DNA of 64,000 nucleotides, taken from positions 682,001-746,000 of the forward strand of contig NZ_FXWK01000001.1 of the NCBI RefSeq assembly GCF_900177655.1. Reading direction: 5' to 3'. Each line of letters begins with the position of its first letter. Within the stretch, counting starts at the first letter, position 1. The notes beneath the pieces are model-generated. The model saw only the letters and a list, made by a program, of their open reading frames with translations, was not told the DNA's origin and did not search any database. Below are positions 24,374 through 39,036 of this stretch, in pieces. The position numbers and the translations under genes were made by a program. Source of the DNA: Devosia lucknowensis (GTDB lineage: Bacteria > Pseudomonadota > Alphaproteobacteria > Rhizobiales > Devosiaceae).

Positions 24374-25120
24374 CTAAGTCGACTTGATCGGGTTGAGCAC
24401 GCGCCACGCCTGGTATTCTTCCTCGGCGTCCGGATGCAGCGGGTAGTAGCGCTGCAGGGACTCTCCGGCCATCAGCTTCATGCGGGAGAACTCTTCCCAT
24501 TCGGCATGCTTCTTGCCGTCTTCCATCACCGCCTCGGCCATCGACACCGGTACGACCACCGCGCCATCGTCATCGGCCACGATGATGTCGCCGGGCACGA
24601 CGGTCACCCCGCCGCAGGCGATGGTGACGTTGACGGCATTGGGAAAGATGTCGGTCTGAACGTGGTAATTGGGCGACCAGCCCTTGAGCCAGAGCGCAAG
24701 ATCGAGCTTTTCGACATTGGGCCGATCGCGCATGACGCCGTCGATGATGATACCGGCGCCGCCACGGCCCTTGAAATAGGTGGACATCATGTCCCCGAAA
24801 ATGCCGGAACGCATGTCGCCGCGTGCGTCGACCACCACCACGTCACCCTTCTGCACATGGTAGAGCACGTGACGGTGGAGCTGCGTCTCGGGGTCGGCAT
24901 ATTCGCCTTCGCTGAAGAGATCAGGTCGTTGCGGCAGACACTGCAGCGTCAGCGCCGGTCCACAGATAGTCTTGCCTTTGGTCTGCGGCAGGATGCCGGT
25001 CATATGCGGGTTCTTGAAACCCATATGTCCCAGCGTACCTGCGATAGTTGCGGCCCCCAGGTGCCGCAGGCCTTCGATAAGATGTTTTGGCGGCCGGCTG
25101 ATGTCGCTAGTCTTGATCAC
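24374..25120 (-). CDS. RraA/HMG-aldolase family protein
   Basis: 248 residues from the GTG at 25120, supported by GGAG 8 nt upstream; a TTG two codons earlier has no room for a ribosome site. Motifs of the RraA-like fold are visible: GDVVVVDARGDMRSGIFGDMM, then GAGIIIDGVMRDRPNV with the R-D pair at about residues 131-132, and GDIIVADDDGAVVVP. Relatives are divalent-metal pyruvate aldolases (4-hydroxy-4-methyl-2-oxoglutarate/4-carboxy-4-hydroxy-2-oxoadipate type) or oxaloacetate decarboxylases. As last gene of the ABC-enolase operon it may cleave a 2-oxo acid made from the imported substrate. That is inference. Confidence 0.82.
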   Translation of the reverse strand: MIKTSDISRPPKHLIEGLRHLGAATIAGTLGHMGFKNPHMTGILPQTKGKTICGPALTLQCLPQRPDLFSEGEYADPETQLHRHVLYHVQKGDVVVVDARGDMRSGIFGDMMSTYFKGRGGAGIIIDGVMRDRPNVEKLDLALWLKGWSPNYHVQTDIFPNAVNVTIACGGVTVVPGDIIVADDDGAVVVPVSMAEAVMEDGKKHAEWEEFSRMKLMAGESLQRYYPLHPDAEEEYQAWRVLNPIKST

Positions 25121-25144
25121 GTCCAATTCTCCACTCCGGTGGAT

Positions 25145-26305
25145 TTACCAGTTGGTCACCGACCCGTCGTTGCGCCTGAGGTGGGGTGCCTCCCAGAAGC
25201 TGAAACTTTGCCGTGCCAGAAGGTCCTCGTTGACCTCCACTCCAAGCCCTGGAGCATCATTGACGGGATAGACCGCACCGTCGAGCTTGGGTTGAACGGG
25301 AAAGAAATCGTCGTTGTCAAAACCAAGACCCCGTTCGGGCGAGCGCGTTTCGAGCCACGCGAAATTCGGCACGGCAGCGGCGAAATGGATGGTCGCCGCG
25401 GTACAGACCGGGCCCAGGGGATTGTGGGGCATCAGATCGACATAGTGCGCCTCGCTCCAGCCGGCGACTTTCATCGCTTCGGTCAGGCCGCCGACATTGC
25501 AGACATCGAGCCGATTGAATTGGTGGATGCCGCGTTCGATGTAGGGCAGGAACTGCCATTTGCTCGCAAATTCTTCGCCAATAGCGAAGGGAATCTGGGT
25601 CATTGTGCGGAGTGATTCATAGGCTTCGGGCGTTTCGTCACGAATAGGCTCTTCGAGAAAGTCGAGTACGCCCTTGTCGAGCTTGTTGCAGAAGCTCGCG
25701 GCTTCGGCGACTGACAGGCGGTGGTGATAATCGATGCCGAGCACCACTTCGCCGCCGAGTTCCTCACGCGCTCGATTGAGGATACGAGCGGTGGCGGCGA
25801 TGGATTGGCGCGGCTCGAAGATGTCGCGACTGTCCTGGCCGATGGGAAAAAAGCGGATAGCGTCAAAGCCCATGGCCTTGAGTTCCTTCGCCCGCTCGAT
25901 GGCGCCTTCGCCGGCGCTGTCTCCCGTCGACGCGAAGGTCGGGATCACGCTGCGTTGCCTGCCGCCGAGAAGTTCGTAGACGGGAACCCCGAGCGCCTTG
26001 CCTTTGATATCGTGGAGGGCAATGTCGATCGCCGAGATCGCCGCCTGCAGGACGCGGCCGCCCTCGAAGTACTGGCTGCGATACATTTCCTGCCAGATGC
26101 GGCCGATCTGCATGGCATCCTGGCCGATCAAAAATTCACGGTAATGCTCGATGGCACCGGCCACGGCCTTTTCGCGGCCGGTGAGCCCGCTTTCGCCCCA
26201 ACCGCTGATGCCCTGGTCGGTTTCGATCTTGAGGAGGAACTGGTTCCGGATGCCGACGCGAGCCGGATAGGGCTTGATCGCGGTGATCTTGAGCTTGGGG
26301 GCCAT
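25145..26305 (-). CDS. Enolase-superfamily (mandelate racemase group) protein 1
   Basis: 386 residues from the ATG at 26305, 8 bp after the ATPase stop. It has the capping domain and TIM barrel of sugar-acid dehydratases. Metal ligands are seen as D192 (with H194 in IDYHH), E218 (FLEEP) and E244 (IGEE), and a histidine base at H294 (MPHNPLGP), all typical of mandelate racemase/galactonate dehydratase types. The first barrel motif reads AIRFFPIG, with R151 where a lysine often sits, so the chemistry may rely on the histidine. It is encoded with an ABC importer and an RraA-like protein. Substrate unknown. Confidence 0.88.
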   Translation of the reverse strand: MAPKLKITAIKPYPARVGIRNQFLLKIETDQGISGWGESGLTGREKAVAGAIEHYREFLIGQDAMQIGRIWQEMYRSQYFEGGRVLQAAISAIDIALHDIKGKALGVPVYELLGGRQRSVIPTFASTGDSAGEGAIERAKELKAMGFDAIRFFPIGQDSRDIFEPRQSIAATARILNRAREELGGEVVLGIDYHHRLSVAEAASFCNKLDKGVLDFLEEPIRDETPEAYESLRTMTQIPFAIGEEFASKWQFLPYIERGIHQFNRLDVCNVGGLTEAMKVAGWSEAHYVDLMPHNPLGPVCTAATIHFAAAVPNFAWLETRSPERGLGFDNDDFFPVQPKLDGAVYPVNDAPGLGVEVNEDLLARQSFSFWEAPHLRRNDGSVTNW

Positions 26306-26313
26306 GGCTGGTC

Positions 26314-27411
<1,098 letters not shown>

Positions 27412-27421
27412 TGGATTACCT

Positions 27422-28303
27422 CTAGTGTTTGACGGCGCCTTCAGTGAGCGCGCGCACGAAGTATTTTTGAAGGACGAGGAACAGCACGACGACCGGCACG
27501 CTCATCAGGAAGCTTGCTGCCATCAGGCCCGGGAAATCCGTGGTGTTTTCAGAGAAGAAGCGCTGGATGCCGACCGGCAGGGTAAGCTGTTCGTTCTTGG
27601 TGAGGAACGTCGCGGCGTAGATGTATTCGTTCCAGGCGCCGATAAAGGAATAGATCGCCGTGGCGATAATCCCGGGCACCGAAAGTGGTGTGACGATGAG
27701 CAGAAAGGCCTGGAACCGCGTGGCGCCGTCGATGCGTGCGGCCTGTTCGAGCTGGATCGGGATATTGTCGTAAAAGCCCTTGAGCAGCCAGATGGCGAGC
27801 GGCAGGCCGAAGGTGAGATAGGTCAGGATCAGTGAGCCATGCGTGTTCACCAGGCCCAGCCAGCGCATCAGGATAAAGAGCGGCACGAGGAAGATCACGG
27901 CCGGGAACATGTTGCGCAGCAGCACCGAGAAAAACAGGAACTTGCGGCCCGGAAATCGGAAGCGCGAGAAGGCATAGGCAGCAGGAACCGCGACCACGAC
28001 GGCAAGGATCGTGGTCACGACCGAGACGAAGAGGCTGTTCCAGAAAAACCGCAGAAAGTCCTGCCCGACGCTGTTCTGCGGATCGAGCAGCTTCTGGTAG
28101 CTCGCAAGGGTCGGCTCGGCCGGCCACCATTGCGGGGGAAATTGCGTTGCGGCAAAGCCTGACTTGATCGAGGTCAGCAGCATCCACGCCATCGGAAGCG
28201 CTGTGTAGAGCACCATGATCAGGAGGAAGATGCGCCCGGACCAGCGCCATCCATCGATGCGCTTGCGGCTGCGGGGCGCGGCGGTATCGGCAGCGATGGT
28301 CAT
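27422..28303 (-). CDS. Sugar ABC transporter permease (MalG type)
   Basis: 293 residues with six TM segments. The ATPase-contacting EAA loop reads EQAARIDGATRFQAFLLIVTPLSVPGI near residue 200, as in MalG-like CUT1 permeases. The basic cytoplasmic N-terminus (RSRKRIDGWRW) precedes the first membrane helix. Its ATG overlaps the stop of the upstream permease gene by 4 bp. It forms the channel with the partner permease for the sugar delivered by the binding protein. Confidence 0.93.
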   Translation of the reverse strand: MTIAADTAAPRSRKRIDGWRWSGRIFLLIMVLYTALPMAWMLLTSIKSGFAATQFPPQWWPAEPTLASYQKLLDPQNSVGQDFLRFFWNSLFVSVVTTILAVVVAVPAAYAFSRFRFPGRKFLFFSVLLRNMFPAVIFLVPLFILMRWLGLVNTHGSLILTYLTFGLPLAIWLLKGFYDNIPIQLEQAARIDGATRFQAFLLIVTPLSVPGIIATAIYSFIGAWNEYIYAATFLTKNEQLTLPVGIQRFFSENTTDFPGLMAASFLMSVPVVVLFLVLQKYFVRALTEGAVKH

Positions 28304-29256
28304 GCGCCGTGCTCCTTTTCATTGCCGCTGAGTGCGCGAACGTAGAAGTAGCCAAGCACCATCAGGATGATGAACAGCAGCACCGAGTAGGCAGCGGCCA
28401 CGCCCCAGCGCTGGCGGCCGAAGGCCAGCTCGTAGATGTGGGTGATCCAGATATGCGAGGCATTGGAGGGGCCGCCGCCGGTCATGATCCACGGGATGAT
28501 GAAGGAATTGAAGTTGGCGACGGCGAGCAGCAGGATCGTGACGGTCGAGACGCCGCGCAGATGCGGGAAGGTCACGTGCCAGAAGCGCTGCCATGCGGAG
28601 GCGCCATCGACCTTGGCCGCCCGCAGCAATTGCTCGGGAACTGTCTGCAGGCCTGCCATCAGCATGATCATGGCGAAGGGGAATTCGCGCCAGATATTGA
28701 CCACGATCAGCGAGGGCAGGACGCTGTTGACGTTATCGATGAAATTGGGCTGCCGGTCGAGAAAGCCGAACTGGACAAGCACCGCGCCAAGCACGCCGAA
28801 ATCGGAGTGGTAGATCCACTTCCAGATGTAGGAGGCGGCGACCGCGCTGATCACCCAGGGAATGATGAGAATGGCGCGCAGGATGGCGCGGCCGGCGAAA
28901 TCACGATGGAGGGCGAGGGCGCAGCCGAAACCCAGCACAAAAGCGATCAGCGTCGAGGCAATGGTCCAGATCACGGTATTGAGCGTGACCTTCCAGAAGA
29001 CATCGCTTGAAAGGATCGCCGAATAGTTCTCGGTGCCGACGAAGATCTTGTCGCGCAGCTGAAGCCCTGGCGGGGTTTTGAAGAACGAGAGATCGATCGT
29101 GTAGTAAATCGGATAGGCGATGACGACGAGCATCACCACGATCGCGGGCAGCACATAGAGGTAGTCGGCGCGGCTGTTCCACATCTGCCGCAAGATATTT
29201 GGACGTCGGGTAAGATGGTCGGGAGCCGCCTGCAGCTGGCCTGTCATCATGGTCAT
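28300..29256 (-). CDS. Sugar ABC transporter permease (MalF/UgpA type)
   Basis: 318 residues with six TM segments and the EAA loop LLRAAKVDGASAWQRFWHVTFPHL. It belongs to the CUT1 family as the first permease. The start at 29256 has AGGAAC upstream; a second ATG three codons later would also fit. A 66-bp gap separates it from the binding-protein gene, and it overlaps the next permease (ATGA). No extended periplasmic P2 loop as in E. coli MalF is present, so it is closer to UgpA. Confidence 0.92.
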   Translation of the reverse strand: MTMMTGQLQAAPDHLTRRPNILRQMWNSRADYLYVLPAIVVMLVVIAYPIYYTIDLSFFKTPPGLQLRDKIFVGTENYSAILSSDVFWKVTLNTVIWTIASTLIAFVLGFGCALALHRDFAGRAILRAILIIPWVISAVAASYIWKWIYHSDFGVLGAVLVQFGFLDRQPNFIDNVNSVLPSLIVVNIWREFPFAMIMLMAGLQTVPEQLLRAAKVDGASAWQRFWHVTFPHLRGVSTVTILLLAVANFNSFIIPWIMTGGGPSNASHIWITHIYELAFGRQRWGVAAAYSVLLFIILMVLGYFYVRALSGNEKEHGA

Positions 29257-29322
29257 CTGGCTCGTTCCTGTCAGAGATGAGGCCGGCAGCGCAGCCGCCG
29301 GCCACTTTTGCAGGGAGGAGGA

Positions 29323-30804
29323 CTAGAGGCCGCCGCCGTCCGTCACGTCGCGCACCTTCTGGGCGGCGTCTGCTGCGGCTTCTTCCACCGTCATCGCTCC
29401 GGTCAATGCGTTCTGGAGCATGTCGGGGATGATGATGTTCATGATTTCAGGCGTTTCCGGCAGAGTCGGGAACGGGATGCCGTAGGGCAGCATGGAGGTG
29501 GTGACGTCGAGGAACTTGATGGTGTCCAGACGCTCCTTCATCCACTCGGTCTTGAAGCCGTTGAGGTTGCCCGGGTTGGAGCCCGCATAGGCCATCTTCA
29601 GCGACCACTCCGGGCTCGTCCAGAAGCAGACCATGGCTTTTGCCGCTGCCTCGTCCACTTCGCCACCCTCGACATATTCGGGGTTGAGGATGTGGATGTT
29701 GGACCCGCCGAACACCACGGCGCGCTTGCCATCCGGACCGGTGGGGATCAGGCCATAACGCATGTTGTCGATGACCGTCTGCGCGGTTTCCTTGTCGGCG
29801 CCGGTGGCCTTGGCCTGCAGATCGAGCATCACGTTATAGTCGGACGGATGCGAAATCATCATGGCGACCTGACCGGCGAGGAACAACGGCTGGTTGTCAG
29901 CCTGCTGATTGGTCAGCGCCGAGACCGGAACCGACTGGTCGCGGACATACATGTCGTAGGACGCCTGAAGGGCGCGGATGCTTTCCGGGCTGTCGAGCCG
30001 GATTTCGCCATAGGTGGGGTTGGCATCCGCCTCGTCGAACACGCCGCCACCGTAGCCCCAGAGCTGCGGCATGAAACGATACGGCGTATTGCCGGCATTC
30101 TTGCGTGCCACAAGGCCGTAGCCGGCAATGCCGAGCTCGTCGTGGATTTTCTTGGAGTATTCGACGACTTCGTCCCAGGTCGCGGGCGGGGTTTCCGGAT
30201 CGAGGCCGGCCCGCTCGAAGATGTCGGCGTTCCAGATAAAGGCCATCGTCTCGTTGTTGGTCGGGATACCGTAGGCCTTGCCCTCCCACATCACCGACTT
30301 CATGGCGCCCGGCCAGAAATCCTCGCTCGCCCAGCCGACATCCTCAGGCTTGAGCTCCTGGAGGTAGCCCTTCGAGGCGAATTCGACGCCACCCAGGATC
30401 TGGAGGCGCACGACCATCGGACCAGCATTGCCCAGAAGCGCCGTGCGGAACTTGTCGAGCAAGTCGTTATAGGTCAGCGCCTGTTCCTGCAGGTCGATAT
30501 TGGGATAGGTGGCGCGGAAGGCTTCGAAGAAGTCCTTGTAGTACTGACGCAACAGGTCAGGGTCGCCTTCGAAGACGCCCTGGTACCAGAAGGTCAGCTT
30601 GCCCTCGTAGTCCAGCGGGGTGACCGCACCGCACTGCTCGGCAGTATCGTAGGTTTCGGTGCCGGCGATCGAGCGTACGTATTCGGGCGACCACTGGCTG
30701 AGGTCGACACTTTGGCCAAGTACGGACGTGCTCATCATCGAAACGGCGAGCGCAGAGACGAATGCGCCACGCGCAAGCGCGCGGCCCAATGGGTAATTTC
30801 TCAT
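29323..30804 (-). CDS. Sugar ABC transporter substrate-binding protein (family 1)
   Basis: 493 residues, at the long end for family 1 binding proteins. The signal peptide is RGAFVSALAVSMMSTSVLGQ. The mature lobes show FFEAFRATYPNIDLQ, VMWEGKAYGIPTNNETMAFIWNADIFERAGLDPETPPATWDEVV and YRFMPQLWGYGGGVFDE, typical of CUT1 oligosaccharide or sugar binding. GAGGAGG lies 6-7 nt before the ATG, a strong ribosome site fitting the high demand for this subunit. First gene of the operon, divergent from the GntR gene. The ligand cannot be read from the sequence. Confidence 0.93.
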   Translation of the reverse strand: MRNYPLGRALARGAFVSALAVSMMSTSVLGQSVDLSQWSPEYVRSIAGTETYDTAEQCGAVTPLDYEGKLTFWYQGVFEGDPDLLRQYYKDFFEAFRATYPNIDLQEQALTYNDLLDKFRTALLGNAGPMVVRLQILGGVEFASKGYLQELKPEDVGWASEDFWPGAMKSVMWEGKAYGIPTNNETMAFIWNADIFERAGLDPETPPATWDEVVEYSKKIHDELGIAGYGLVARKNAGNTPYRFMPQLWGYGGGVFDEADANPTYGEIRLDSPESIRALQASYDMYVRDQSVPVSALTNQQADNQPLFLAGQVAMMISHPSDYNVMLDLQAKATGADKETAQTVIDNMRYGLIPTGPDGKRAVVFGGSNIHILNPEYVEGGEVDEAAAKAMVCFWTSPEWSLKMAYAGSNPGNLNGFKTEWMKERLDTIKFLDVTTSMLPYGIPFPTLPETPEIMNIIIPDMLQNALTGAMTVEEAAADAAQKVRDVTDGGGL

Positions 30805-31037
30805 GTAGTCCTCCTCTGTCCCGGAAAGCGCCCCTCGCGCGTCCGGGTCTCACGCAGCGGAATACATCGGGCTTGGGCCTCTTATGTACATCTCGCCGTA
30901 AAATCAACGTTGCAGATTGGATATTGCGTGTCAACTGGATTGGATTATACATTATTTGCAACACATGATGCGCCAATGCGGCGCAATGTCTCGGTACCTG
31001 AGGCAGCAATTTCGTTAAAGGCATGCCTCGGAACACT
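30805..31037. promoter_or_regulatory. Divergent control region of the ABC and GntR-enolase operons
   Basis: This 233-bp region must hold both promoters. Short palindromes ATGTACAT (30884-30891) and CAACGTTG (30905-30912) and the near-palindrome ATTATACATTAT (30944-30955) are candidate sites for the FCD-type GntR regulator encoded just downstream. The stretch 30900-30965 is clearly AT-richer than the flanks. Which element is the operator cannot be decided by eye. Confidence 0.4.
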
Positions 31038-31760
31038 ATGAAAGCTGACGAGACAAAAATGAGCGATTTCAAAGCGCAACCTCCGGCCGGGATTGAGCCG
31101 ACAGGCGCATCCCAACAGGGAGACTCGCTTTATCAGCTGATCCGGGACGACATCATCTCGGGCAGGCTCAGCCCCAATGAGCGGCTGGTCGTCGCCGATC
31201 TGGCGCAGCGCCACAACACCTCGACAAACCCCGTTCGCGAAGCACTTCAGCTGCTGCGCGGGGAGGGCTTCGTGGTGATCTCGCCCAATCGTGGCGCGCG
31301 CGTCCGCCCCATCGACCAGAATTTCGTGCGCGACATCTACGAAATCGGGGTGCTCATAGAGCCTGCGCTGACCCGCTGGTTCGTCGGCATGGCGACGCTC
31401 GAGGACATCGCCGAGCTCGAAAAGGTGCAGGCCGAGATCGAGGAAAACAATTTCGCCGATCCCATGCGTCACAGCGAGCTCGACACCCGCTTTCACACCA
31501 TCATGTACGAGCGGCACTACAACCAGCATGCCGCCGAGCTTTGGTGGAAGCATCGCGAAGTGCTGCGCGCCGTAAGCCGGCGCTACAATTTCACGCTGGC
31601 CCGCCGCGCCCAGGTGCTGCGCGAGCACCGCCAGTTGATCCAGTTCATCAAGGACGGCGAGGCCGACAAGGCCGCTGCCCTCGTGGCCCAGCATGTGGAG
31701 GGCTCGGGCCGCCATGTGCTTGAGCAGATGCGTGCTGCGGAGGCTGCGCGCGCCGGATAA
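31038..31760 (+). CDS. GntR family regulator, FCD/FadR subfamily
   Basis: 240 residues from the ATG at 31038 (GGAA 6 nt upstream); ATGs at 31023 and 31059 are alternatives. The N-terminal winged helix is DSLYQLIRDDIISGRLSPNERLVVADLAQRHNTSTNPVREALQLLRGEGFV, the GntR hallmark. The C-terminal FCD domain (about 95-230) has the metal- and ligand-binding spacing D-x3-H in ELDTRFHTIMYE, then HREVLRAV and REHRQLIQFIKDGEADKAAALVAQHVE. It heads the enolase operon and diverges from the ABC operon, so it probably represses both and responds to a sugar acid. Confidence 0.9.
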   Translation: MKADETKMSDFKAQPPAGIEPTGASQQGDSLYQLIRDDIISGRLSPNERLVVADLAQRHNTSTNPVREALQLLRGEGFVVISPNRGARVRPIDQNFVRDIYEIGVLIEPALTRWFVGMATLEDIAELEKVQAEIEENNFADPMRHSELDTRFHTIMYERHYNQHAAELWWKHREVLRAVSRRYNFTLARRAQVLREHRQLIQFIKDGEADKAAALVAQHVEGSGRHVLEQMRAAEAARAG

Positions 31761-31795
31761 CAGCGGCCGGCAAACGGCCGAAGGGAGGAAAGACG

Positions 31796-32965
31796 ATGAA
31801 GATCACGGGCGTGAAGCCGTGGCTTATCAAGACGGCCGCGTCCTATTGGGGCGAGTTTCTGTTTGTGGAAGTGACGACTGATGCCGGCATTTCCGGCTGG
31901 GGCGAGATCACCACCACCACCTACGTCGCCAATCGCGCCCTCTGCGTCATGCTCCAGCAGATCAGCAAGATCGTCGAAGGGGACGATCCCGCCCAGATCG
32001 AGCGCATTTGGCACAAGGTCTTCCGCAACTTCACATACATGGGCAGCCGTGGCGCGGCGGTCGAATGCGTCAGTGCCATCGACATCGCGCTCTGGGATAT
32101 TCGCGGCAAGGTGCTCGGCCAGCCCATCTATGAGCTGCTTGGCGGCCCGGTGCGTGATGACATTCTCCTCTACACCCACCCTGACCAGCGCAAGTTCACG
32201 ACCAGGGAAGGTGTCGTCCAGGAAATTCGGGACATCATCGCCTCGGGGCACACTGCTCTGAAGTTCGATCCCTATGCCCAGCAGGGCCAGAAAAACGTGC
32301 ACGGCATAGCGCGCGAACAGTCCGAGGGGTATCTCGATGGGTCGATGACGCGCAAGGACGAGCGCGAAGCCGCCGAGCTCACGGCGCTGATCCGCGAGAC
32401 CGCTGGACCCGATATCGAGATCCTCATCGACGCCCACGGGCGCTTCGACGTGCCGACCGCCATCCGGCTCTGCCGCTCGCTCGAGGAAGCCGGCGATATC
32501 GACTGGTTTGAAGAACCAGTGCCGCCCGAAAGCATCAATGCGCTCCGGCAAGTGCGCGAAAAGGTCAGCGCCGCGATCTCCTGGGGCGAGCGGGGACATA
32601 CCAAGTGGGACTTCGTGCCCATCCTCGAAGGCAGGCTGGCCGATTATATCATGCCCGACGTCACCTGGACCGGCGGCATCACCGAGCTCAAGAAGATCTC
32701 GGCGCTGTGCGAGGCCTATTACATTCCCGTTTCGCCTCACGACGCGGCCGGTCCGATCAACGTCGTCGCCGGTGCTCAGGTGATGATGACGGTGCCCAAT
32801 TTCTACCGGCTCGAGACTTCGGAGTGGAACCTCTCCAAATACGATCACCTGATCGACAAGCCGCTCGACAATTCCGGCGGCAGCCTCAAGCTCAACAAGG
32901 CGCCGGGTCTCGGGGTCGAAATGAACCGTGACTATCTCGCCGACAATCTCATCGCGTTCGATTGA
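31796..32965 (+). CDS. Enolase-superfamily (mandelate racemase group) protein 2
   Basis: 389 residues with a strong GGAGGAAA ribosome site. The barrel carries K156 (ALKFDPYA), metal ligands D212 with H214 (IDAHGRFD), E239 (WFEEPVPP) and E265 (GERG), and catalytic H315 (SPHDAAGP). The residues for a proton-abstracting acid-sugar dehydratase or cycloisomerase are thus present. It follows the GntR gene after 35 bp containing a CGGCCG-GCAAA-CGGCCG element and is followed by two more superfamily members. Galactonate- or anhydro-sugar-acid-type activity is possible; no exact assignment. Confidence 0.9.
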   Translation: MKITGVKPWLIKTAASYWGEFLFVEVTTDAGISGWGEITTTTYVANRALCVMLQQISKIVEGDDPAQIERIWHKVFRNFTYMGSRGAAVECVSAIDIALWDIRGKVLGQPIYELLGGPVRDDILLYTHPDQRKFTTREGVVQEIRDIIASGHTALKFDPYAQQGQKNVHGIAREQSEGYLDGSMTRKDEREAAELTALIRETAGPDIEILIDAHGRFDVPTAIRLCRSLEEAGDIDWFEEPVPPESINALRQVREKVSAAISWGERGHTKWDFVPILEGRLADYIMPDVTWTGGITELKKISALCEAYYIPVSPHDAAGPINVVAGAQVMMTVPNFYRLETSEWNLSKYDHLIDKPLDNSGGSLKLNKAPGLGVEMNRDYLADNLIAFD

Positions 32966-32980
32966 TCGGGGCGTAGGCAG

Positions 32981-34339
32981 ATGACGACATCCACAACAGC
33001 CGAGATGATCGAGGACAATGTACGGACCGCTTCACGCCCCAGCGATCTGCGCATCACCGATCTGCGCGTCGCCGAGATCGTCGGTGCGCCTTTTACGTCG
33101 GCCTTGCTGAAAATCTACACGAACCAAGGGATAGTGGGCCTTGGGGAAGTCCGGGACGGGGCGAGCGCGACTTACGCGCTGATGCTCAAGAGCCGGCTTC
33201 TGGGCGAAAACCCTCTCGACATCGACCGCCTCTTCCGCCGCATTAAGCAGTTTGGTGGTCACGGCCGGCAAGGCGGTGGGGTCTCGGCGATCGAGATCGC
33301 GCTCTGGGATCTTGCAGGCAAGGCCTATGGCGTGCCGATCTACCAGATGCTGGGCGGCAAGTTCCGTGACCGTGTCCGGTGCTATTGCGATACTGACGCT
33401 GACAAGCCGAGCGGCACCGAAACGGGCAGACGGCTCAAGGCACGCATGGAAATGGGGTTCACCTTCCTGAAAATGGACCTGGGGCTGATGCAGATCGCCG
33501 ATATCCCGGGCGCCGTGGTGTCGCCTGCGGGGTCGCTCGAAGCCTATCGTGTGCATCCAGATCGTGGCCCCGTCACGTCGATGGATGAGCGGCGGGCCCG
33601 CAATGCGGTCTACGACACGCACAATGTGCGGCATCCGTTCAGCGGGCTGCATTTTACCGACAAGGGCATCGATCTCCTCGAGCAATATATTCACGAGGTT
33701 CGCGAAGTGATCGGCTACGAAGTGCCGCTCGCCATCGATCATGTCGGCCATATTTCGCTGCAGAACGGCATCCGGCTGGCCCGGCGGATCGAGAAATACG
33801 TCCCGGCCTGGCTCGAAGACGTCATCCCCTGGCAGTATACCGAGCAATATCGGCAGCTTCAGGAAGCCTCCACCGTGCCGATCTGCACGGGCGAGGATAT
33901 CTATCTCAAGGAGGATTTCGAACCACTTCTCAAGGCCGGAATTTCGGTGATCCATCCGGACCTTTTGACCTCTGGCGGCATCCTGGAGACCAAAAAAATC
34001 GGCGACATGGCGCAGGACCATGGTGTGGCCATGGCCATCCATATGGCCGAGAGCCCGATCGCGGCCATGGCGGCAGCGCATGTTGCCATCGCGACCGAGA
34101 ATTTCATGGCGCTCGAATACCATTCGGTCGAGGTCGATTGGTGGGACGATATCGTCACCGGCCTGCCCAAGCCGTTGGTGCAGAACGGATTCATCACTGT
34201 GCCCGACAAGCCCGGGCTCGGGATCGATGACGTCGTCGACGATGTGATCCGGCAGCACCTGCAGCCGGGCGTCAAGGATATCTGGCAATCGTCGGAGCAT
34301 TGGGACCAGGAGTATTCCTGGGACCGGACCTGGAGCTAA
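32981..34339 (+). CDS. Enolase-superfamily protein 3, long variant
   Basis: 452 residues, 50-60 longer than its neighbours. The extra length is an insertion at about 172-230 between the K164 strand ([10 protein letters not shown]) and the metal-ligand strand. Ligands appear as D253 (AIDHVGH), E279 (WLEDVIPW) and E305 (TGEDIY), with H354 (AIHMAESP) as the candidate base. The IDH and LEDVIPW motifs differ from protein 2, so this is another subgroup, not a recent duplicate. It lies 15 bp after protein 2 and 4 bp before protein 4. Specific substrate unknown. Confidence 0.87.
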
Positions 34340-34343
34340 GCAC

Positions 34344-35546
34344 ATGAAAATCACTGACTTGCGCTGCGCCGTCATCGGCCGCCATCCCATTGTGCGTATC
34401 GTCACCGACGAGGGGCTCTATGGCCTGGGTGAAGTTGAGTTCACCAAGCCCTATCTCAAACCCTGGGTGCTGCATTTTCGAGATGCGCTGATCGGTGAGG
34501 ACCCGACAGATGTCGAGCGCTGCATGCTCAAGATACGGCAGCGCGGTTCATTCAAGCCTTATGGCGCGGCGGTCAGCGCCATCGAACATGCGCTTTGGGA
34601 CATTGCTGGCAAGGCCGCCAATGTGCCCGTCTACAAGCTTCTTGGTGGCAAGGTGCGCGATAAGGTTCGGGTCTATAATGGCTCGATCCGTCAGAAGCGC
34701 ACCGGCGATCGGCCGGAAGATTACGCCGCCGACGTCAAATGGATGATGGAACGGCCCGAAAACTTCTTCATGGTCAAGCAGGGCATAAGCTTTCATTCGA
34801 ACATGAAGGACACGGTGGACAACTTCCACTATGGCGTGCGCCAAAATAAGGCCGGCTATCATGGCGCCATGGACCAGGGGCAGATCTCCGAGCGTGGTTT
34901 CAACCACATGCTCGACTGCGTCGCGGCTATGAAGGAAGTGTTGGGCGACAAGGTGTCACTGGCGCTCGATTGCGGCCCTGGCTGGTTCCTCAACGACGCG
35001 ATCCGCTTTGCGCGGGCGGTCGAGAAATATGACCTGATGTGGCTCGAAGACATGCTGACCGGGGACTATGTGCCTTGGGTCAATCCGCAGGCCTATCGCG
35101 AACTGACGATGTCGACATCGACGCCGATCCATACTGGCGAACAGATCTATCTCCGGCACAATTTCAAGGAGCTGATCGAAACACAGGCTGTGCGCGTCGT
35201 TGGTCCTGACCCGGCCGATATCGGCGGCATTGCCGAACTTAAATGGGTTGCCGAGCACGCCTACATGCATTCGATCATGATGGCGCCGCATGGCACGGCG
35301 AACGGGCTCTTGGGGCTGGGGGCGCTGATCAATGTCTGTGCCACCCTGCCGGCCAATTACATTGCCTTTGAATATCCAAGCGCCTCCGATCCCTGGTGGG
35401 AGGATATCGTCATCGGGTTGCCGGAAGGGCAGATCGTCAGGGATAGTCACATCGATTTGCTCGAAGCACCCGGGCTTGGGCTCGATATCGATGCCGAAGG
35501 CGCCAAAAAGTATCTGCTCGAAGAGGATGCCGGCTTTTTCGACTGA
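34344..35546 (+). CDS. Enolase-superfamily protein 4
   Basis: 400 residues. The capping domain (KITDLRCAVIGRHPIVRIVTDEGLYGLGE) leads into a barrel with K145 (MVKQGISF), metal ligands D209 (ALDCGPGW), E235 (WLEDMLTG) and E265 (HTGEQIY), and H316 (MAPHGTANG). The LED/TGE motif style is shared with protein 3, suggesting those two are closer to each other than to proteins 1 and 2. The start is 4 bp after the stop of protein 3. A sugar-acid dehydratase role is inferred from family and operon only. Confidence 0.88.
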   Translation: MKITDLRCAVIGRHPIVRIVTDEGLYGLGEVEFTKPYLKPWVLHFRDALIGEDPTDVERCMLKIRQRGSFKPYGAAVSAIEHALWDIAGKAANVPVYKLLGGKVRDKVRVYNGSIRQKRTGDRPEDYAADVKWMMERPENFFMVKQGISFHSNMKDTVDNFHYGVRQNKAGYHGAMDQGQISERGFNHMLDCVAAMKEVLGDKVSLALDCGPGWFLNDAIRFARAVEKYDLMWLEDMLTGDYVPWVNPQAYRELTMSTSTPIHTGEQIYLRHNFKELIETQAVRVVGPDPADIGGIAELKWVAEHAYMHSIMMAPHGTANGLLGLGALINVCATLPANYIAFEYPSASDPWWEDIVIGLPEGQIVRDSHIDLLEAPGLGLDIDAEGAKKYLLEEDAGFFD

Positions 35547-35564
35547 GCCGAACGGAGGAAATGG

Positions 35565-36611
35565 ATGAAGTATCGCTATCTCGGACGCTCCGGCCTTCTG
35601 GTTTCGCGGCTTTGCTTGGGGACCATGACTTTCGGCAATGACCAATGGGGGTGCGATCAGGACACGTCGAGCGCCATCGTACGCCGCTTCATCGAGGGTG
35701 GCGGCAATTTCATCGATACCGCAGACGGTTACAGCGCTGGGGAATCCGAGCGTATGCTGGGCATGGCGATCAGGGATTATGATCGCGACCACCTTGTGCT
35801 GGCGACCAAGTGCTGGTTTCCGACCGACAGCGCCGTCACGGCGCGGGGGCTATCGCGCAAGCATATCATCGATGCCTGCGAGCGCAGCCTCAAGCGGCTC
35901 GGGACGGACTTTATCGATCTCTATCAATTCCACGGGCCCGATCCCTATACCCCGCTCGAAGAGAGCCTGCGCGCGGCAGACGATCTCGTGCGCGCCGGCA
36001 AGGTTCGCTACGTCGGTTGCTCGAATTTTTACGGCTGGCAGATCGCCAAGGCCAATACCTTGGCAGATGCCAAAGGCTATGAGCGGCTGATTTCAGGGCA
36101 GCATCTCTATAATCTCATTCGCCGCGATATAGAGCGCGAAATCCTGCCGGCGGCGGAGGATGCGGGAGTAGGCATCATTTGCTGGAGCCCTCTGGCAGCG
36201 GGGATGCTGTCGGGCAAATATCGCGATCAGTTGGCGCCGGATGCACGGTCGCGCATGGGCATTCAGGCCTCTGTAACCGTGCCGCGCTACTGGTTCGAGG
36301 ATGCGCTCAAGCTGGTCGAAAAAGTGGCTGACGTTGCGCAGCGGCTCGGGCATACGCCCAGCCAGGTTGCGCTCAGCTGGCTATTCGGTGACCAGCGGAT
36401 CACCGCGGCCATCATCGGCGCGCGGACCCCGGGGCAGGTCGGTGAAAACCTGGTTGCCGGCGAACTGGAACTGCCTCCCGAGATCAGGAACGAACTGACT
36501 GCGGCACTGCCAGTCAACCTTGGCTATCCGTTTGAATGGACGGAAAACAATCTCCGCGCCACTTTCGGCAGGGCGGAGTTCGAACCGGCCCACACCGTAC
36601 GGCTCCCGTGA
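35565..36611 (+). CDS. Aldo/keto reductase
   Basis: 348 residues with the AKR catalytic tetrad D51, Y56, K82 and H123 (DTADGY, ATKCW, QFHGPDP) and the C-terminal NADP(H)-binding IIGARTPGQVGENL. The ribosome site GGAGG lies 8 nt before the ATG. As last gene of the GntR-enolase operon it could oxidise or reduce a sugar before or after dehydration (sugar dehydrogenase/reductase). It resembles the YajO/oxidoreductase branch of the family. It converges on the AraC gene across 45 bp. Confidence 0.92.
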   Translation: MKYRYLGRSGLLVSRLCLGTMTFGNDQWGCDQDTSSAIVRRFIEGGGNFIDTADGYSAGESERMLGMAIRDYDRDHLVLATKCWFPTDSAVTARGLSRKHIIDACERSLKRLGTDFIDLYQFHGPDPYTPLEESLRAADDLVRAGKVRYVGCSNFYGWQIAKANTLADAKGYERLISGQHLYNLIRRDIEREILPAAEDAGVGIICWSPLAAGMLSGKYRDQLAPDARSRMGIQASVTVPRYWFEDALKLVEKVADVAQRLGHTPSQVALSWLFGDQRITAAIIGARTPGQVGENLVAGELELPPEIRNELTAALPVNLGYPFEWTENNLRATFGRAEFEPAHTVRLP

Positions 36612-37574: not shown

Positions 37575-37668
37575 CGAAATCTGTAAATCCCGGAAGAAGC
37601 TGTTAGCATTCCGGATTGTTCGTAGCCTTGCAAGTCGTAAGCTCCGCTCGACACTTCTGGAGCATCCC

Positions 37669-39036
37669 ATGGCAAACCCAAAAATCACCTTCATCGGCGC
37701 CGGCTCGTCCGTTTTCATGAAGAACATCGTCGGCGACATCCTGCAGCGCCCGGCACTTGCGGGCGCCGAAATCCGGCTCATGGACATCAACCCGACCCGT
37801 CTCGAAGAAAGCGCCATCATCGCCGGCAAGCTGGTGAAGACGCTGGGCGTCCCCGCCACGGTCAAGACCTTTGCGGATCAGCGCGCCGCGCTGGACGGCA
37901 CGAATTTCGTGGTCGTCTGTTTCCAGATCGGCGGCTACGAACCCTCTACGGTCGTCGATTTCGACGTCCCTAAGAAGTACAACCTTCGCCAGACCATCGC
38001 CGACACTCTGGGCGTCGGCGGCATCATGCGCGGACTGCGCACGGTTCCGCATCTGTGGAGCATCTGCGAAGACATGCTCGAGGTCGCGCCGGACGCGATC
38101 ATGCTGCAATACGTCAACCCCATGGCCATCAACACCTGGGCCATTGCCGAGAAATACCCCACCATCAAGCAGGTCGGCCTCTGCCATTCCGTCCAGGGCA
38201 CGGCGCATGAACTGGCCCACGATCTCGGCATACCCTACGAGGACATCCGGTACCGCTCGGCCGGGATCAACCATATGGCCTTCTATCTCAAGCTCGAGCA
38301 TCGCCAGCCCGACGGCTCCTACAAGGATCTCTATCCCGAACTGCACCGTGCCTATCGCGAAGGCCGCGCGCCAAAGCCGGGCTGGAACCCGCGCTGCCCC
38401 AACAAGGTGCGCTACGAGATGATGACGCGCCTGGGCTATTTCGTCACCGAAAGCTCGGAACACTTCGCTGAATACACGCCCTATTTCATCAAGGAGGGTC
38501 GCGAGGACCTGATCGAAAAATACGGCATCCCGCTCGACGAATATCCCAAGCGCTGCGTGGAACAGATCGAGGGCTGGAAGAAGACGTCCGAGCAGTATCG
38601 TACCGCCGAGACCATCACTGTGAAGCCGTCCAAGGAATACGCCTCCTCCATCGTGAACTCGGTCTGGACGGGCGAGCCCTCGGTGATCTACGGCAATCTC
38701 CGGAACAATGGCGTCATCACCTCGCTCCCCGATAATGCGGCGGTGGAAGTGCCCTGCCTGGTGGACGACAACGGACTGCAGCCCACCTTCATCGGCGATC
38801 TGCCGCCCCAACTCACCGCTCTGATCCGCACCAACATCAATGTGCAGGAACTGACGGTGCGTGCGCTGGTCGACGAAAACCGCGAGCACATCTATCACGC
38901 GGCGATGATGGACCCGCACACCGCAGCCGAACTGGATCTTGAGCAGATCTGGAGCCTCGTAGACGATCTCCTCGTTGCCCATGGCGACATGCTGCCCGCA
39001 TGGGCACGCGGCGCTCGCCGTCAGGCCGTGGCCTGA
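37669..39036 (+). CDS. Glycoside hydrolase family 4 (alpha-galactosidase/alpha-glucosidase)
   Basis: 455 residues from the ATG at 37669 (TGGAG 7 nt upstream). GH4 enzymes use NAD+ and a divalent metal with a redox-assisted elimination mechanism. The nucleotide-binding GAGSSVFMKN is at 10-19. The metal and active-site motif CHSVQGT starts at C172-H173, and NHMAFYL carries H202. VNPMAINTWA near 150 is also typical. Length and CHS motif fit the MelA/AglA branch. No signal peptide, so it acts on imported di- or oligosaccharides in the cytoplasm. A strong terminator follows. Confidence 0.92.
   Translation: MANPKITFIGAGSSVFMKNIVGDILQRPALAGAEIRLMDINPTRLEESAIIAGKLVKTLGVPATVKTFADQRAALDGTNFVVVCFQIGGYEPSTVVDFDVPKKYNLRQTIADTLGVGGIMRGLRTVPHLWSICEDMLEVAPDAIMLQYVNPMAINTWAIAEKYPTIKQVGLCHSVQGTAHELAHDLGIPYEDIRYRSAGINHMAFYLKLEHRQPDGSYKDLYPELHRAYREGRAPKPGWNPRCPNKVRYEMMTRLGYFVTESSEHFAEYTPYFIKEGREDLIEKYGIPLDEYPKRCVEQIEGWKKTSEQYRTAETITVKPSKEYASSIVNSVWTGEPSVIYGNLRNNGVITSLPDNAAVEVPCLVDDNGLQPTFIGDLPPQLTALIRTNINVQELTVRALVDENREHIYHAAMMDPHTAAELDLEQIWSLVDDLLVAHGDMLPAWARGARRQAVA

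Follow-up and report, generated by a model that had tools for sequence, protein, structure and literature searches.

A divergent importer and enolase-superfamily locus of Devosia lucknowensis as a probable acid-sugar cassette with an exchangeable import part

Which compound, and which reactions, would bring four different enolase-superfamily enzymes together around one sugar importer? We addressed this question for a 64,000-nucleotide stretch of the Devosia lucknowensis genome (the window; contig NZ_FXWK01000001.1, positions 682,001 to 746,000). It holds two back-to-back operons, 218 bases apart. The minus-strand operon reads RraA-Eno1-ATPase-Perm2-Perm1-SBP, with a CUT1-type ATP-binding cassette (ABC) importer that includes the solute-binding protein (SBP), and the plus-strand operon reads GntR-Eno2-Eno3-Eno4-AKR, ending in an aldo/keto reductase (AKR). 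The open reading frame (ORF) list and a Pfam scan agree with the gene set, coordinates and domains reported by a sequence-only reading of the same DNA: an RraA-like protein, four enolases, a CUT1 importer, an FCD-type GntR regulator and an AKR in two divergent operons (Table 1). We consider it reasonably probable that these genes serve catabolism together, as a cassette whose import part can be exchanged: a non-phosphorylating acid-sugar route that would end in RraA as a pyruvate aldolase. Gene content, conservation, co-inheritance and conserved residues were computed, rhizosphere induction and fitness come from published work, and the reactions, the order of steps and the substrate are inferred.

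The gene set is widely kept around Eno3, for which all compared loci were chosen. Searching 151 relative genomes with Eno3 gave a close relative in 46, the D. lucknowensis genome included, and 40 of the 45 others were fetched as Devosiaceae loci (stretches of 9–20 kb, four of them under 19.9 kb, so that some absences are contig ends). Besides Eno3, these 40 loci contain RraA (37), Eno1 (35), SBP (36), GntR (37) and Eno4 (36), and less often Eno2 (14), a NIPSNAP-domain gene (15) and AKR (7, each adjoining Eno4). Among 51 alphaproteobacterial loci of named genomes, partly the same Devosiaceae, the counts were RraA 49, Eno1 47, SBP 49, Eno2 45, Eno4 50 and AKR 2, both AKR-positive loci being from genomes already among the 40. 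RraA and SBP thus stay beside the enolases, as the sequence-only reading had asked to be checked. Its fixed six-gene set did not hold: Eno2 is absent from 26 of the 40 Devosiaceae loci (23 of 36 when stretches of about 20 kb are counted; at L067 the contig stops just before Eno3, where Eno2 would lie), and AKR was not found in 33. The order RraA-Eno1-ABC-Perm2-Perm1-SBP and, divergently, GntR-Eno2-Eno3-Eno4 recurs in Rhizobium and Mesorhizobium. The flanks differ among the genomes read, and recurrence of the order in other genera with different flanks is therefore not chance.

Eno2 is inherited with the importer and the regulator. Devosiaceae loci with Eno2 (14) are called type I and those without it type II. 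SBP identity to the window was 79–97% in type I, 62–71% in type II (22 of 26 loci, those where an SBP was found) and 79–83% in 42 other alphaproteobacterial loci, all of which carry Eno2. The 42 were taken from L071–L118 after removal by hand of L072, L073, L110, L114, L115 and L117 (Devosiaceae or duplicates); L117, named Bauldia, lacks Eno2, so that "all type I" is true of the 42 only. The window is itself type I, and identities measured against it exaggerate the difference between types, a fault from which gene trees are free. Quick LG+G4 trees were made for the window and 42 loci with all nine shared genes present (32 Devosiaceae and 10 of 11 hand-picked loci from outside the family). On these trees the type label changes once each for Perm2, Perm1, SBP and GntR (support 99–100), twice for ABC and Eno1, three times for RraA, seven times for Eno3 and nine times for Eno4. 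Within Devosiaceae alone, the changes were one each for Perm2, Perm1, SBP and GntR, two for ABC, three each for Eno1 and RraA, six for Eno3 and eight for Eno4. DNA distance is not the explanation: Eno3 starts only 15 bases past Eno2 and does not track it, while Perm2, more than 3 kb off and across the divergent promoter, tracks it fully. At two loci without Eno2 (L028 and L030), RraA (92–93%), Eno1 (90%), Eno3 (94–95%) and Eno4 (97–98%) flank a divergent Perm1 (72%), SBP (69%) and GntR (64–66%), which by these identities look like block exchanges. Eno2, both permeases, SBP and the regulator are one exchangeable block, and Eno3 and Eno4 vary independently of it. This contrast is new here. In our reading, Eno2 would be an additional entry step that serves a compound delivered only by the type I importer.

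The four enolases are distinct enzymes. All have both domains and the D-E-E metal ligands of the enolase superfamily (MR/MLE type), and each has its own nearly invariant active site, giving four different types. Eno1 has R155, D196-x-H198, E222, E248, D271 and H298, kept in 86 of 86 rows; Eno2 has K156-x-D158, D212-x-H214, E239, E265, D288 and H315; Eno3 has K164-x-D166, D253-H254-x-G256, E279, E305, D327 and H354; and Eno4 has K145, D209-C-G-P, E235, E266, D289 and H316. The metal ligands and catalytic roles are those we take these residues to have. The DxH histidine, two residues past the first metal ligand, is present in Eno1 and Eno2 and is missing in every row examined of Eno3 (V, I, L or F instead) and Eno4 (G). 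One Eno3 row of 96 has R at the second metal ligand. Rows of named genomes (L068–L118) overlap the Devosiaceae rows, and these residue counts, like those of the RraA motif below, contain duplicates. The sequence-only reading had described four non-copies with the motifs IDYHH, IDAHG, IDHVGH and LDCGPG; all four motifs were found, and the tree agrees that the enzymes differ. In its contrast of FLEEP or WFEEP with WLED, the WLED form is not odd, as it also occurs in the solved relative 4gme.

No enolase of the locus could be assigned to a characterised or named family at its NCBIfam cut-off, the outcome that the sequence-only reading had said would speak against a single pathway if it went the other way. 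Against the D-galactonate dehydratase model NF010624 (cut-off 311), Eno1 scored 279.5, Eno2 222.4, Eno3 199.1 and Eno4 171.6; the best score against D-mannonate dehydratase ManD (NF043051, cut-off 550) was 245.5, for Eno1. In the tree, Eno1 groups with E. coli DgoD and RspA (support 97/98; the row "Rj_Eno1" is R. leguminosarum WSM1325, L021), but it lies under the DgoD cut-off and neither DgoK nor DgoA adjoins it. Among solved proteins, PDB entry 2qq6, a Rubrobacter xylanophilus enolase-superfamily protein whose title gives no activity, matches the sequences of Eno2, Eno3 and Eno4 best, and it is also the best structural match of the Eno3 model. It has the DxH histidine ("DMHGR"), unlike Eno3 and Eno4. 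Above the family cut-off, the whole genome gives eight MR_MLE_C matches, and this locus accounts for four of them.

The RraA-like protein is the sole aldolase candidate in the locus, as the sequence-only reading had said, and the sole RraA-family match in the genome; the genome search added two KDPG (2-keto-3-deoxy-6-phosphogluconate)-aldolase-family genes outside the locus. Its R133-D134 aligns with the R-D of 3noj, the catalytic Arg-Asp motif of RraA-fold class II pyruvate aldolases. The motif is kept in 92 of 92 RraA orthologue rows, and the RraA-like proteins from other phyla have it as well (17 of 17). According to PMC5065237, most RraA-type homologues have the metal-binding and catalysis motifs and are probably pyruvate aldolases of class II, and substitution of R123 strongly lowers activity. 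RraA falls below the cut-offs of the models for 4-hydroxy-4-methyl-2-oxoglutarate/4-carboxy-4-hydroxy-2-oxoadipate aldolases (NF006731, 127.7 against 179; TIGR02798, 125.9 against 304.5). From its sequence, the protein is predicted to be a class II pyruvate aldolase.

Eno3 extends furthest. A scan at one genome per species gave at least 80 loci, and among the matches listed, relatives at 57–66% identity occur in Paenibacillus, Cohnella, Alicyclobacillus, gut Clostridia, a Bacteroidales metagenome-assembled genome (MAG) and Anaerolineae, the phyla outside its own being Bacillota, Bacteroidota and Chloroflexota. This cross-phylum family without the DxH histidine is new here. At the 29 other-phyla loci among those listed, no close relative of any other cassette gene was found; weaker permease, GntR and AKR matches are present. 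Neighbours were counted over 28 of the 29 (L147, 3.3 kb, excluded) in stretches of up to 21 kb, with one or two members scanned per cluster. An RraA-like gene lies 6 bases to 6.9 kb from Eno3 in 17 of the 28. Other neighbours are a short-chain dehydrogenase/reductase (SDR, 14), a UxuA-type gene (10; 217.5 bits against 199.55 for the one that was scanned), a CUT1 binding protein (10), a GH10-like gene (10) and a metallo-beta-lactamase-fold hydrolase (5). UxuA and GH10-like genes never occur together in one of the 28 loci, and three loci are without an RraA-like, SDR, UxuA or GH10-like gene. In an Anaerolineae MAG, a uroporphyrinogen-decarboxylase-like gene (possibly a methyltransferase; L134:10043-11134) adjoins, by eye, the UxuA gene beside Eno3.

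These contexts allow a more specific chemical guess. In 4-O-methyl-glucuronate, the methyl ether is on the carbon beta to the carboxylate, so that methanol could take the place of water as the leaving group in the reaction of an enolase or UxuA-type enzyme. This sugar acid, from xylan, is our own candidate substrate for the Eno3 route and fits the mannonate-dehydratase and GH10-like contexts. That Eno3, with its D-H-x-G site, is a new enolase-superfamily activity central to an undescribed cross-phylum aldolytic route for a plant-polymer uronate is a long shot.

A related Eno3-like enzyme (38–43%) occurs on plasmids of Microvirga terrae and Sinorhizobium mexicanum (L024 and L025). In M. terrae it sits with two Amidohydro_2 genes, DhaK, a CUT1 importer, RraA, AKR, SDR and an SMP-30 lactonase. 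The stretch from S. mexicanum, which has no annotation, is similar by eye, and no RraA was found there. The M. terrae type of locus may be a sister pathway that includes dehydrogenase and lactonase steps. Eno4 is likewise separable: of 384 further genomes drawn from the class, four match it (E up to 1e-90) and give no such match to Eno3. Five Eno4-only places were fetched. An RraA gene is close by in two, one of which also has an importer of the same type, and the other three show neither.

The cassette also has a published phenotype, a link that is new here. All ten genes, in unchanged order, are present on the chromosome of R. johnstonii 3841 (L093). Its enolase matches at 4074519(-), 4081536(+), 4083054(+) and 4084280(+) fit RL3858 and RL3864-66, a further match lies about 6 kb before them at 4068146(+), and the cassette fits RL3858–RL3866, tags assigned by gene order and strand only. 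In R. leguminosarum bv. viciae 3841 the importer of unknown solute lies among four "mandelate racemase" genes, and AKR is not adjoining, unlike in the window. According to Ramachandran et al. 2011 (PMC3333776), the CUT1 system RL3860-2 was induced in all rhizospheres tested (pea, alfalfa and sugar beet), and an RL3860 mutant competed poorly on pea, with a rhizosphere competition index of 0.58. The term "undescribed" in the sequence-only reading therefore holds for substrate and chemistry, but not for the locus, whose 3841 copy had its induction and competition phenotype published in 2011.

Taken as a pathway, the substrate would be one or more plant or soil sugars or sugar acids, taken up by the CUT1 importer under control of the GntR/FCD regulator. 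The enolases would act on a carboxylic acid, abstracting the alpha-proton before elimination or epimerisation to a 2-keto-3-deoxy acid. Eno1 would perform a galactonate/mannonate-dehydratase-type step, Eno3 and Eno4 two more core steps with non-classical active sites, and Eno2 an additional one where the type I importer brings in its compound. RraA, as a metal-dependent enzyme, would cleave the 2-keto-3-deoxy acid to pyruvate and an aldehyde without phosphorylation, and AKR may reduce the aldehyde in some strains. For SAR202 bacteria, PMC10444878 proposes non-phosphorylative sugar routes that combine enolase-superfamily enzymes with SDRs, AKRs and aldolases of other kinds. Their L-rhamnose and L-fucose routes likewise place an enolase-superfamily dehydratase with an SDR, an AKR and an aldolase among paralogues; they use a COG3836/COG0329 aldolase, whereas the cassette has an RraA-family candidate, four enolases in one locus and no constant dehydrogenase or lactonase.

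Several observations weigh against such a route. The alphaproteobacterial cassette has no constant dehydrogenase or lactonase to turn a neutral sugar into an acid. RraA was not found in three of the 40 Devosiaceae stretches (L052, L054 and L067), nor was Eno1 in five, some being contig ends. Eno1 is also missing from L100. In Microvirga ossetica most of the cassette is retained, with another enolase (L026:4969-6126, 32% to Eno1), beyond RraA, in place of Eno1. The Bauldia MAG L117, which is not in the compared set, carries Eno3, Eno4 and RraA, with neither Eno1 nor Eno2 within 12 kb. Well-supported branches force only five of the seven type changes of Eno3 and two of the nine of Eno4 (four of six and one of eight in Devosiaceae alone). 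In PMC3333776 the enolase genes were barely induced under conditions that induced the importer, with a slight rise only for RL3864 (1.5-fold, alfalfa) and RL3866 (1.4-fold, pea). The Eno3 locus L141 carries its own PfkB kinase and KDPG-aldolase-family gene and, with the two such genes in the D. lucknowensis genome, indicates that RraA need not be the aldolase. The one complete route of the sequence-only reading is also only partly upheld: RraA and SBP do lie beside the enolases, but Eno2 follows the importer, Eno3 is present in other phyla with no close relatives of the other cassette genes and Eno4 occurs without Eno3 in four alphaproteobacterial genomes.

The enolases could instead act in parallel, each dehydrating a different stereoisomeric acid, for example the aldonates of a mixed plant oligosaccharide, with all keto-deoxy acids passing to one RraA aldolase. 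The four active-site types, the single RraA-family match, the dispensability of Eno2 with its tie to importer type, and the finding of Eno3 and Eno4 each without the other would fit. In the 40 Devosiaceae loci, however, Eno1 accompanies Eno3 in 35 and Eno4 does so in 36 (loci chosen for Eno3, with no null comparison), and we regard parallel action as possible but doubtful. That RraA is instead a ribonuclease regulator and no enzyme, with the enolases feeding a KDPG aldolase elsewhere in the genome, appears improbable. Rhizobium records do name the protein "ribonuclease activity regulator RraA", and the two KDPG-aldolase-family genes would serve; but it scores below the cut-offs of the ribonuclease E regulator models (56.6 against 136; 29.5 against 241.25), its R-D motif is conserved, and RraA-like genes lie close to Eno3 in other phyla. 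Least credible is aromatic or lignin-derived catabolism, which the authors of PMC3333776 guessed from a "muconate lactonising" annotation. RraA relatives include the 4-carboxy-4-hydroxy-2-oxoadipate aldolase 3noj, and aromatic genes flank one Rhizobium copy. The four enolases nevertheless reach only 55–101 bits against the muconate cycloisomerase cut-off of 335, none of the ten genes is an oxygenase, the flanks vary by genome, the importer is of the CUT1 type, and UxuA, GH10-like and SDR genes lie near Eno3 elsewhere.

Table 1. Features of the D. lucknowensis locus, in window coordinates
Feature	Position	Strand	Evidence
RraA-like protein, predicted class II pyruvate aldolase	24374..25126	-	PF03737 119 bits; NF006093 293.2 over cut-off 208
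Eno1, galactonate/mannonate-dehydratase-like enolase-superfamily enzyme	25145..26317	-	MR_MLE_N + MR_MLE_C
CUT1 ABC transporter ATPase (UgpC type)	26314..27411	-	NF008653 434.7 over cut-off 432
Perm2, ABC permease	27422..28303	-	ORF; 87–88% to annotated permeases of L021, L023, L027
Perm1, ABC permease	28300..29256	-	ORF; 80–81% to annotated sugar permeases
Solute-binding protein (SBP)	29323..30804	-	PF01547 (SBP_bac_1) 127.1 bits
Conserved element AATGTAYRA (one strand) between divergent operons, candidate regulator or promoter site	30945..30953	.	
GntR/FCD transcriptional regulator	31023..31760	+	PF00392 + PF07729
Eno2, accessory enolase-superfamily enzyme, occurs with type I importer	31796..32965	+	MR_MLE_N + MR_MLE_C
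Eno3, cross-phylum enolase-superfamily enzyme without DxH histidine	32981..34339	+	MR_MLE_N + MR_MLE_C
Eno4, enolase-superfamily enzyme without DxH histidine	34344..35546	+	MR_MLE_N + MR_MLE_C
Aldo/keto reductase (AKR), optional member	35565..36611	+	PF00248 (Aldo_ket_red) 246.4 bits

The CUT1 importer is defined by models for its ATPase and SBP and by similarity for its two permeases, which were identified not by Pfam but by 80–88% similarity to annotated Rhizobium and Sinorhizobium permeases. Eno1 probably starts at the ATG four codons downstream of the listed TTG. AATGTAYRA occurs in 42 of 48 intergenic regions between divergent operons; the pattern was picked after viewing frequent k-mers and the regions are homologous, so that its rarity in shuffles is overstated. 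A NIPSNAP-domain gene (PF07978, about 108 codons), absent from the window, lies between Eno3 and Eno4 in 13 Devosiaceae loci and is also found in 13 of the 42 other alphaproteobacterial loci. Four Mesorhizobium loci (L087, L088, L091 and L095) have a second stretch adjoining the cassette, with another enolase, AKR, permeases and RraA (58%). Past AKR in the window is a GH4 gene (37663–39036; 676.7 bits against a cut-off of 486 for the alpha-galactosidase model), and R. etli CFN 42, R. aethiopicum and R. phaseoli (L027:3828-5198, L099 and L104) have a relative (82–83%) at the opposite end of the cassette.

The best PDB sequence matches of AKR are 7utf and 8hwn (DepB). DepB is a Devosia enzyme of epimerisation of the mycotoxin deoxynivalenol, and the sugar-catabolic setting of AKR may point to what DepB-like AKRs originally did. 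More broadly, genes that had been annotated only loosely, as mandelate racemases next to an importer whose solute is unknown, become a defined cassette, one for which a rhizosphere phenotype has been published in a model symbiont. Within it, the enzymes that vary independently of the importer (Eno3 and Eno4) are set apart from an exchangeable specificity block of permeases, SBP, regulator and Eno2. Eno3 itself belongs to an uncharacterised enolase-superfamily family common to soil Alphaproteobacteria, Paenibacillus and gut Clostridia.

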